Positions 1,922 to 22,519 of a stretch of DNA of 34,120 nt are shown in pieces. Numbering within the stretch: position 1 is the first letter of the stretch; every line of letters starts with the position of its first letter. The position numbers and the translations under genes are program-made. Below the pieces are notes generated by a model. The model ran no database searches and was not told the DNA's origin. It was given only the letters and a program-made list of their open reading frames with translations. The DNA is from Candidatus Falkowbacteria bacterium RIFOXYC2_FULL_36_12 (GTDB taxonomy: Bacteria > Patescibacteriota > Patescibacteriia > UBA11705), in NCBI GenBank assembly GCA_001778235.1, contig MFGJ01000006.1, forward strand, positions 162,092 through 196,211. The letters are read 5' to 3'.

Positions 1922-3124
1922 ATGAAAATTGCTGTAATTTCCAATTTATTTGAACCATATCAGCGTGGAGGAGCAGAGAAAATAGCCAAAATTATGGCTG
2001 ATACCTTGGCAGAAAATCACGATGTTTTTGTAGTCTCATCAAAACCTTTTGTCACGCTAGATTCATTTAAAACATCAATGGATAGCTATCAAGCTTCATT
2101 TGGCAAGGAAATAAAGGTTTATAGATATTATCCTCTTAATCTTTTTTATTATTTAAATGATTTCAAATATCCGGCGATTATTCGTTTATTCTGGCATATT
2201 ATAGATGTATTTAATTGGGACTCGGCAAATCAAATCGCGAAAATTCTTGAAGCTGAAAAACCGGAAATTGTTATTTGTCACAATTTAAAAGGTCTTGGTT
2301 ACATGTTGCCTAGGAAATTAAAGAAAATGAATATTAAACAAATATTGGTTCTGCATGATGTGCAATATGCTGTGCCATCAGGATTAATCATAAAAGATCG
2401 GGAAAATAGTTTTGCCTCTGATGGATTATTTACAGGCTGGTATCAAGACATAAATAAATTATTACTAAAAAATATTGATATTTTGATTTCACCTTCAAAG
2501 TGGTTAGGTGATTTTTATAAAGAAAAAGGATTTTGGTTGGATAAAAAAATTGAAATATTAAATAATCCGATTAAAGTTGATGAAAAATTGATTATAAAAA
2601 AAACAACTTTTGATAATAAAAAAATTAACTATTTATTTGTTGGACAATTGGAAACCCATAAAGGGATTGAATTGATTTTGAAGCAATTTGAAAATAAAAA
2701 TGATATACTTCAGGTTGTTGGTGATGGTACGAGGTTTAATGAACTCAAAACAAAATATAATAAAATAAATATTATTTTTCATGGTAAAATGGAAAATAGT
2801 AAGTTGAAAGAACTTTATAGCCAGGCTGATTATGTGATTGTGCCATCTGTGTGTTATGAAAATTCACCGACTGTGATTTATGAAGCTTTTAATCAAGGGA
2901 TCCCGGTAATAGCCTCAAATATTGGAGGCATTCCTGAATTGGTTGCTCATAATCAAACTGGTTGGTTGTTTGAGGCTGGAGATAGTATTTCGTTGCAAAA
3001 AGCATTAGAAAATTCAGCAAAAACAGTAAATTATGAGGCTATGCAACAAAACTGCTTGAAAAAAGTCAGGGAATTTGATATAATAAAATACAATGAAAAG
3101 TTGAACAATTTATTGAAATCATAA
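1922..3124 (+). CDS. Glycosyltransferase family 4 (GT-B)
   Basis: This 400-residue GT4 protein starts MKIAVISNLFEPYQRGGAE, with the classic GGAE acceptor loop. The donor domain shows LFVGQLETHKGIE, VVGDG, the E-x7-E motif (ENSPTVIYE) and GIPVIASNIGGIPELV. It is only distantly similar to the preceding GT4, so it likely adds a different sugar or linkage in the same glycan. No SD is seen before the ATG. The last 70 bp of the coding sequence carry a near-consensus promoter reading into tRNA-Trp. The stop codon is 22 nt before the tRNA and abuts a long stem that encloses it. Confidence 0.9.
   Translation: MKIAVISNLFEPYQRGGAEKIAKIMADTLAENHDVFVVSSKPFVTLDSFKTSMDSYQASFGKEIKVYRYYPLNLFYYLNDFKYPAIIRLFWHIIDVFNWDSANQIAKILEAEKPEIVICHNLKGLGYMLPRKLKKMNIKQILVLHDVQYAVPSGLIIKDRENSFASDGLFTGWYQDINKLLLKNIDILISPSKWLGDFYKEKGFWLDKKIEILNNPIKVDEKLIIKKTTFDNKKINYLFVGQLETHKGIELILKQFENKNDILQVVGDGTRFNELKTKYNKINIIFHGKMENSKLKELYSQADYVIVPSVCYENSPTVIYEAFNQGIPVIASNIGGIPELVAHNQTGWLFEAGDSISLQKALENSAKTVNYEAMQQNCLKKVREFDIIKYNEKLNNLLKS
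3056..3084 (+). promoter_or_regulatory. Sigma70-type promoter inside the GT4 gene, for tRNA-Trp
   Basis: TTGAAA (3056-3061) and a perfect TATAAT (3079-3084) are separated by 17 nt. A TG one base upstream of the -10 gives an extended -10 (TGATATAAT). Predicted start is near 3091, about 56 nt before the mature tRNA, so the transcript would include the leader strand of the alternative stem. Confidence 0.6.
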
Positions 3125-3233
3125 AAGTATTTGTGGTAGGGGTCATGGGGGTGTAGTGTCAACGGTTAGCACGAAGGTCTCCAAAACCTTTTGTCTGGGT
3201 TCGAATCCTAGCACCCCTGCCACAAGTACTTTT
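3123..3233 (+). other. 21-bp inverted repeat enclosing tRNA-Trp (alternative precursor stem, terminator-like)
   Basis: Bases 3123-3143 pair with 3213-3233 over 21 uninterrupted pairs. Two are G.U wobbles (3130:3226 and 3137:3219), so the match is better as RNA than as DNA. The stem uses the 3' acceptor strand, discriminator and CCA of the tRNA, and therefore excludes the mature acceptor helix; the D, anticodon and T arms can still form inside. T-rich sequence (ttttgttt) follows, so it may also end transcription. Confidence 0.6.
3147..3222 (+). tRNA. trnW: tRNA-Trp (CCA anticodon), 3' CCA encoded
   Basis: The cloverleaf folds by eye. The acceptor is GGGGGTG/CACCCCT (first pair G.U). The D stem is GTGT/GCAC with GG in the loop. 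The anticodon stem AAGGT/ACCTT has loop CTCCAAA (anticodon CCA at 3181-3183). The T stem CTGGG/CCTAG has loop TTCGAAT. The discriminator base is G, as expected for tryptophanyl-tRNA synthetase, and CCA is encoded at 3220-3222. The variable loop is 4 nt. The leader carries a second, near-identical acceptor strand (AGGGGT) that can pair with the same 3' strand in a longer stem. Confidence 0.95.
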
Positions 3234-3265
3234 TGTTTAGATTTAGGTTGTTTTTGCAATTGTAA

Positions 3266-3294
3266 TTGACTTTTATTGTTAATTAGCTTATAAT
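3266..3294 (+). promoter_or_regulatory. Strong sigma70-type promoter for the 106-aa orphan gene
   Basis: TTGACT (3266-3271), a 17-nt spacer and TATAAT (3289-3294). The predicted start is near 3301, leaving a leader of about 98 nt. Confidence 0.7.
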
Positions 3295-3329
3295 ATCAAA
3301 TCAAAATCAGTTTTCACATGAAGCAGTGA

Positions 3330-3381
3330 GTTCTTGTACCCGAACAAGGAACAAAGCCAGGGTTAATTTTTCAACTTTGGC
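3330..3381 (+). promoter_or_regulatory. Two-hairpin 5' leader of the 106-aa orphan gene
   Basis: Hairpin 1 pairs GTTCTTGT (3330-3337) with ACAAGGAAC (3344-3352) around one bulged base. Hairpin 2 pairs GCCAGGGTT (3356-3364) with AACTTTGGC (3373-3381), nine pairs including two G.U. The strong SD (AGAGGAGGT) starts 4 nt after hairpin 2. This suggests mRNA stabilisation or leader regulation; no known riboswitch class was recognised. Confidence 0.45.
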
Positions 3382-3398
3382 ACTAGAGGAGGTCAAAG

Positions 3399-3719
3399 AT
3401 GCTAATGCCGTATGAAGTTATTGTAAGTGTGTTTGATGATGGGACTCTGGCTGCCAGTGGAAAAAGTACTGATGAAGGTGACCACAGTGGTTGGTATAAG
3501 TTTAGAACAGAACTTCAAATGCCGGTTGAACTTGGTGATTATGTTATCTTGTCTGTGGCGGGGAATGAAGTACCATTTGATTTTGATGAACATGCCAATT
3601 GGGGTTGGAATAATGTAAAAAAGGTCTATGAATTAAGGCTAACAATTTCTAAGCATTATAAGCGAATTGTTGCAAGAGAAGATTTTGACTCTGATCATAA
3701 TTGGAAACGCGTAAAGTAG
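3399..3719 (+). CDS. Orphan small protein, 106 aa, unknown function
   Basis: I do not recognise this protein. It is an acidic, aromatic-rich, probably beta-rich soluble polypeptide without signal or membrane segment. Visible segments include YEVIVSVFDDG, GWYKFRTELQMPVELGDYVIL and NWGWNNVKKVYELRLTI. The start is well supported: AGAGGAGGT lies 6 nt before the ATG at 3399. It is a complete transcription unit with its own promoter, structured leader and a terminator that overlaps the stop codon. Such full regulatory signals contrast with the SD-less large genes nearby and point to high, autonomous expression. It sits directly downstream of a tRNA gene, a common place for acquired DNA. Confidence 0.8.
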   Translation: MLMPYEVIVSVFDDGTLAASGKSTDEGDHSGWYKFRTELQMPVELGDYVILSVAGNEVPFDFDEHANWGWNNVKKVYELRLTISKHYKRIVAREDFDSDHNWKRVK

Positions 3720-22207: not shown

Positions 22208-22519
22208 ATGTCTGGATTTGTGTATATAATGACTAATAAATTGAATTCTGTTTTATATACTGGATCAACTTCTGATATTGTAGCGAGGGTTAAACAGCAT
22301 AAAGAAAAATATTTCCCCAATTCTTTTACTGCGAAATATAATATAAATAAACTTGTTTATCTTGAGTTTTTTGAAACAAGGGAAGAAGCTTATATTCGAG
22401 AGCATCAAATTAAAAGAAGAAACAGAATACACAAGATAAAACTTATTGAATTAAAAAATCCGATGTATCGTGACTTAATTAATGAAATATTACAGGATGG
22501 GTTTGATAAATTTACATAG
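22208..22519 (+). CDS. GIY-YIG nuclease superfamily protein (YhbQ/UPF0213-like)
   Basis: 103 residues. FVYIMTNKLNSVLYTGST is the GIY-YIG motif in its VYI...LYTG form. Later ARVKQHK, YLEFFETREEAYIREHQIK and KNPMYRDL match the standalone single-domain UrI/YhbQ-type proteins, including the conserved glutamate in EAYIREHQIK. These small proteins occur in many genomes and their natural role is poorly defined; some nick DNA. The stop codon itself is the first bases of the repeat array that follows. Confidence 0.88.
   Translation: MSGFVYIMTNKLNSVLYTGSTSDIVARVKQHKEKYFPNSFTAKYNINKLVYLEFFETREEAYIREHQIKRRNRIHKIKLIELKNPMYRDLINEILQDGFDKFT

Follow-up and report, generated by a model that had tools for sequence, protein, structure and literature searches.

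The locus described here raises the question of why the only tRNA-Trp gene of a bacterium should encode a precursor whose own flanks can enclose it in a long helix and pair away its CCA end. The gene lies in a window of 34,120 nt (the whole stretch of DNA that was analysed) from Candidatus Falkowbacteria bacterium RIFOXYC2_FULL_36_12. This genome, G000, is 1.09 Mb long and 99.8% complete, and its class includes relatives of Candidatus Paceibacter. The features of the locus are as follows:

1922..3124, + strand: group 1 glycosyltransferase gene (open reading frame; Pfam PF00534, E = 1e-29)
3056..3084, + strand: predicted sigma-70 promoter, TTGAAA-17-TATAAT (consensus scan, 11/12 matches; prediction only)
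3123..3143, + strand: leader, the 5' arm of the enclosing helix (sequence)
3138..3143, + strand: AGGGGT, an extra copy of the 5' acceptor strand (sequence and folding)
3147..3222, + strand: tRNA-Trp with anticodon CCA and encoded CCA (ARAGORN; Rfam RF00005)
3213..3233, + strand: 3' arm of the enclosing helix, made of the 3' acceptor strand, discriminator G73, CCA and trailer
3229..3238, + strand: T-rich stretch CTTTTTGTTT at the helix foot, candidate terminator tail (sequence)
3266..3294, + strand: predicted promoter of the next gene, TTGACT-17-TATAAT (consensus scan, 11/12 matches)

At 3147-3222, the gene presents the cloverleaf, the anticodon CCA, the discriminator G and the CCA end of a tRNA-Trp, and the Rfam RF00005 match covers 3147-3219 with 57.2 bits. 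It is the sole tRNA-Trp among the tRNAs detected in G000, with no second copy, whole or interrupted, among them. The glycosyltransferase stop TAA (3122-3124) shares two bases with the start of the 5' arm. The predicted promoter at 3056-3084 lies within the end of the same gene and places the predicted start of the tRNA transcript at about 3091, and the one at 3266-3294 bounds the transcription unit downstream. The Rfam scan of the window retrieved no RNA family other than tRNA. Neither this type of tRNA nor the exact junction of leader and tRNA had a match in IMG/VR, so we claim no phage link.

The leader-trailer helix and its competing folds

Read directly, AAAAGTATTTGTGGTAGGGGT (3123-3143) and ACCCCTGCCACAAGTACTTTT (3213-3233) form 21 uninterrupted pairs, including the wobbles U3130.G3226 and U3137.G3219. 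An earlier note on this DNA had described this pairing, and also the leader copy AGGGGT (3138-3143) separated by CAT from GGGGGT (3147-3152); both descriptions are exact. The same note took the wobbles as a sign of selection at the RNA level, which is a weak argument since a G.U pair results about one time in three when a single base of a perfect inverted repeat changes at random.

That the helix is a chance complementarity of AT-rich flanks has next to no probability. Helices of at least 10 bp do arise in about 3% of mismatched leader/trailer pairs, but when the bases of the flanks were shuffled 20,000 times, the longest leader/trailer helix never exceeded 19 bp, against the 21 bp observed, and a covarying helix exists in three other genomes (see below).

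At the folding level, the minimum free energy of 3115-3245 was -47.3 kcal/mol, versus -30.9 ± 3.3 kcal/mol for dinucleotide shuffles (z = -5.0). AGGGGT can replace GGGGGT as the partner of the 3' acceptor strand, and in the resulting alternative fold the discriminator and the CCA are paired too. This fold reached -46.2 kcal/mol, against -40.0 kcal/mol with the native acceptor stem enforced. These Vienna energies describe secondary structure only. They leave out co-transcriptional folding as well as the tertiary contacts and the modification of the tRNA, and the last two would tip the balance toward the cloverleaf. By prediction, the CCA-hiding fold suggested earlier outcompetes the acceptor stem, with a margin of about 6 kcal/mol. 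The computed ensemble contains essentially no native acceptor stem and shows C74, C75 and A76 in pairs, and the native-acceptor fold retains 15 bp of the outer helix alongside the cloverleaf.

Recurrence and covariation within the class

Leader-trailer complementarity was absent as a general trend among the 45 tRNAs of G000 (permutation p = 0.56). Across the class, helices of at least 10 bp between 30-nt flanks were found in 9.5% of 137 tRNA-Trp loci, versus 2.8% when leaders and trailers were swapped (p = 0.0002). The helix is a minority trait of the tRNA-Trp loci of this class, present above chance.

When a strong helix is present, it is mostly in register with the acceptor stem (11 of 14 tRNA-Trp loci), which means that 4 more nt stay unpaired before the tRNA than after the CCA and that four leader bases face N73-CCA. 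For helices of at least 9 bp, the commonest in-register geometry (4 nt before the tRNA and 0 after the CCA) was seen six times against 0.05 expected. In five in-register loci that were folded, the helix and the native acceptor stem coexist and the advantage of the alternative fold is 0. G050 and G083, which belong to one family, share an identical dot-bracket structure with about 10 doubly changed pairs, and the mismatch positions are kept.

We searched for the pattern TGGNAGNGG directly before a tRNA-Trp, a search in which only the leader motif TGGNAG is fixed and the trailer is ignored. It matched 4 of the 381 genomes of the class: G000, G001 (same family), G322 and G341. Their leaders are similar, namely TAAAAGTATTTGTGGTAG in the window (3122-3139), TAAAATATTTATGGCAG in G001, TAAAAGGTTTTTGGCAG in G322 and TAAATAATTGGTAG in G341. 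All three other genomes presented a leader-trailer helix that covers G73-CCA and extends past the CCA. Aligned in four rows, the arms form 96.6% standard pairs and 7 of the 15 pairs are changed on both sides; none of 500 shuffles reached the observed pairing or the observed score, and sliding the partners along the alignment lowered the pairing to 44-53%. This covariation is a result from four sequences, whose tRNA bodies differ in type. For that reason we regard the homology of their short AT-rich arms as likely rather than proved.

The alternative fold is also shared. Its computed advantage over the native acceptor was 6.2 kcal/mol in G000, 4.7 in G001, 3.5 in G322 and 4.4 in G341. In the latter three, the 5' G-run of the tRNA itself, slipped by two bases, pairs as the separate AGGGGT of the window does. 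Within the folding model, the decoy of the window is a local variant of a competition common to all four genomes: of the decoy proposed in the earlier note, the competing register holds in the relatives, whereas the separate second copy is special to G000. The alignment of related loci that the note had called for was similarly divided. Leader and trailer covary in G001, G322 and G341, but the leader complement is missing in most of the class, including the tRNA-Trp of the sister genome G002, and the note had named homologous loci of this kind as evidence against its reading.

An apparent covariation between G039 and G076 was set aside, as the leader of G076, unlike that of G039, is formed by the end of a nuclease coding sequence, so that their arms may be non-homologous.

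The paired changes may also have arisen in the DNA, with one arm serving as template for the other, which would imitate covariation. More broadly, the inverted repeat could be a DNA-level trace (the end of a mobile element, or template switching at the tRNA fold) that has no function in RNA. GIY-YIG nucleases can act on branched DNA, template switching through a folded tRNA would give the same acceptor register (gap difference of 4) as the 11 of 14 strong helices, and at L181, L182 and L258 the tRNAs that lie within other tRNAs have inverted repeats on both sides. We consider this explanation distinctly unlikely, however, because wobble pairs are tolerated in the four-genome count (5 G.U cells versus 2 non-pairs among 58), and because copying would have erased the mismatches that G050 and G083 keep while about 10 pairs change on both sides.

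GIY-YIG genes and nested tRNA-Trp copies

In G001, G322 and G341, a GIY-YIG gene of about 85 aa (Pfam PF01541, E from 2e-11 to 5e-15) lies directly upstream of the tRNA-Trp. It ends 11-14 nt before the tRNA, with its stop in or beside the 5' arm. A GIY-YIG C-terminus directly precedes the tRNA at 14 of 170 tRNA-Trp loci and at 0 of 194 loci of other tRNAs (p = 1.7e-5), and a few more such neighbours of tRNA-Trp were spotted by eye. The majority of these GIY-YIG-linked tRNA-Trp genes carry no strong helix. The association between helix and GIY-YIG gene was not significant alone (3/17 versus 11/152, p = 0.15); it reached p = 0.001 only after pooling nested copies, and we do not rest conclusions on it.

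The window, G001, G322 and G341 all have the upstream stop codon at the outer border of the 5' arm, and a lock coupled to translation was considered: the ribosome that ends the upstream gene would cover the 5' arm and open the helix, so that the tRNA matures, while an untranslated precursor would stay locked. A ribosome positioned on 3122-3124 would indeed cover roughly the outer arm. Nevertheless, this is very improbable. The tRNA of the window is apparently transcribed from a promoter of its own, which follows most of the glycosyltransferase gene, so that most transcripts may be untranslated; control of this type is hardly to be expected for a sole tRNA-Trp gene, and at several in-register loci no gene ends at the arm.

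The same three genomes contain remnants of a second, interrupted tRNA-Trp nearby. In G001 (L282, region 1156-1695), the glycosyltransferase gene is followed by the 5' half of a tRNA-Trp up to GGTCTC, a palindromic hairpin and the GIY-YIG gene; then come the complete tRNA-Trp with its helix, a hairpin, and the 3' half from CAAAACC. Once joined, the outer halves give a sequence identical to the inner copy. G341 (L284) and G076 (L062/L238) follow the same nested plan, and G050 (L297), which was partly read, a similar one; in these four genomes, the breaks lie near the anticodon and carry palindromic hairpins. The cases cited were read by eye, given that an automatic excision test for nested tRNAs returned many artefacts from neighbouring tRNAs. 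A literature search on nested tRNAs found nothing relevant.

The window and G001 correspond as loci, since both carry a glycosyltransferase gene at the same position before the tRNA-Trp (39% identity). Their tRNA genes do not follow: the tRNA-Trp of the window is closest to that of G039, from a distant family (91% identity), and BLAST gave no match to that of G001. This is the expected outcome if the tRNA gene was exchanged, and on sequence grounds it fits a replacement of the tRNA gene by cassettes.

No GIY-YIG gene adjoins the tRNA-Trp of the window, whose upstream neighbour is the glycosyltransferase; six GIY-YIG matches were found elsewhere in the G000 genome. Because the adjoining nuclease gene and the interrupted tRNA-Trp copy are both missing, we do not class the window as a member of the GIY-YIG-linked element. 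We regard it as related to this element, possibly as a nuclease-free descendant. A small GIY-YIG gene is located away from any tRNA at 22208-22519 (+ strand) of the window, and another begins just past the window end.

Several other tRNA arrangements were observed. L218 (G098, 1228-1386), L219 (G124, from 1293) and L258 (G571) present a complete tRNA-Trp within a broken tRNA-Trp, with inverted-repeat flanks TCCCGC.../...GCGGGA; the breaks are similar in different families (after the anticodon loop, resuming in the T-loop) and no nuclease gene lies between. In L022 (G046), L004 and L082, a tRNA-Thr-like gene flanked by inverted repeats sits within the anticodon of another tRNA-Thr (TTTG / TAAACC), and the outer tRNA of L022 is complete on either side. 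At L049, L054, L057, L072 and L075 of G000, and at many tRNAs of G001 and G002, a palindromic hairpin lies directly 3' of the tRNA and the encoded CCA pairs with TGG; TGGCnnGCCA often follows these hairpins in the three genomes. Upstream of some tRNAs (in L054, those for Gly, Ile and Pro), the hairpin occurs in reverse-complement form and pairs with the tRNA 5' end. The tRNA-Arg of L053 (G000, 711-786) has a trailer that contains a perfect complement of its 3' acceptor strand and CCA (CTGCACCAGAGATG...CATCTCTGGTGCAG), a mirror image of the tRNA-Trp case. Finally, in L256 (G515), mutually similar sequences, TTTT(T/A)CGC(T/C)GAC...GCCC, directly follow the CCA of three different tRNA genes (Trp, Thr and Tyr).

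Termination, maturation and known systems

A consensus scan of 2900-3450 (loop of 3-8) displayed no conventional terminator-like hairpin. With none between the tRNA's own predicted promoter and the next one, the helix followed by CTTTTTGTTT is the only terminator candidate of the unit. The helix could then be simply the intrinsic terminator of the tRNA, with the tRNA in its loop, the leader as the 5' half, and the trailer and U-run as the 3' half. The A-rich 5' arm and T-rich tail suit this reading, and the same layout occurs at nuclease-free loci of G004 (L016: ...GCGATTTTTGTTTTGTTTTG) and G039 (L002: T8). We nonetheless hold it to be unlikely as the whole explanation. The copies of the covarying helix in G001, G322 and G341 have no T-run, which is absent in G047 and G083 as well; the presence of a leader-trailer helix at a locus does not lower the frequency of local terminators; and a plain terminator has no need to hide the CCA.

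The reading that we prefer, with slightly better than even confidence, is a precursor helix conserved within a mobile tRNA-Trp lineage that is linked to GIY-YIG genes and found across Paceibacteria, and from which the nuclease is absent here. It builds on the computed helix, its recurrence, its covariation and the association of tRNA-Trp with the nuclease. Rather than an accident, the helix looks like something that copies of a mobile tRNA gene have in common. The tRNA-Trp gene would belong to a mobile lineage in which the helix around the precursor was kept through paired changes, and the window locus would have lost both the nuclease gene and the remnants of the second tRNA.

At the level of the precursor, the helix would pair away the discriminator and the CCA and favour an acceptor register unsuited to RNase P and to 3' processing. 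Pairing between the leader and the RCCA end slows E. coli RNase P by hindering formation of the active complex (PMC9433436). Since the window combines 15 such pairs with the wrong register, we infer that the helix most likely delays maturation of both tRNA ends until it is opened or cut. Opening or cutting must occur, as the sole tRNA-Trp still has to be made, and RNase III would be one candidate for the cutting. In G000, the helix with its U-run would also serve as terminator of the tRNA unit, a possible role suggested by the sequence and additional to the delay in maturation.

A more specific version, which we propose tentatively and place somewhat short of even confidence, is a mobile element whose two components are a complete tRNA-Trp and a small gene for a GIY-YIG nuclease. 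The element would insert into the anticodon loop of a tRNA-Trp and supply a replacement tRNA with a CCA-hiding, covarying locked precursor; the window would be a nuclease-free descendant that is now the cell's only tRNA-Trp. A nuclease gene travelling with a complete tRNA-Trp inside another tRNA-Trp would let a selfish element enter an essential gene while the cell survives. Such an invasion would also account for the strong divergence of tRNA-Trp at the same locus between sister genomes. Should maturation be under the control of the helix, the cell would make an essential tRNA, encoded by a single gene copy, through a precursor that needs active unlocking, which would bear on how tRNAs are finished in CPR bacteria with few processing enzymes.

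Among known systems, the closest likeness is to the leader-RCCA anti-determinants of E. coli (PMC9433436), where the leader also pairs with the discriminator and the CCA and lengthens the acceptor stem; there, the active RNase P complex is hindered, whereas the pairing of the window is known in silico. The E. coli cases involve 2-4 pairs at the cleavage site, in contrast to 15 pairs past the acceptor stem plus a competing register in the window, whose helix uses leader bases 4-24 upstream. Pre-rRNA leader-trailer helices, such as the 16S processing stem (PMC10250234), are alike in that the flanks of a stable RNA pair around it before processing. The window helix differs from them by enclosing a single tRNA, by using mature bases (acceptor strand and CCA), and by occurring in a minority of tRNA-Trp genes.

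Disrupted tRNAs have been covered previously (PMC10714607 and PMC4390854), and the interrupted outer copy of G001 resembles such a disrupted gene, but a complete copy sits inside it. Insertions in the rRNA genes of CPR bacteria carry GIY-YIG genes and match neither group I nor group II introns (PMC11270868). That report deals with rRNA genes and leaves tRNA unmentioned, whereas in the GIY-YIG-linked loci described here the insertion is in a tRNA-Trp and brings a complete tRNA-Trp.

Like intrinsic terminators, the window has an A-rich 5' arm and a helix followed by a T-rich stretch; unlike them, it has an entire tRNA as 'loop', of 69 nt in the alternative fold, and its relatives have the helix but not the T-run. 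In the split and permuted tRNA precursors of archaea and Cyanidioschyzon, complementary leaders or flanks hold the parts of the tRNA together. The window shares the complementary flanks with these precursors, but its tRNA is continuous and bacterial, with no halves to join.
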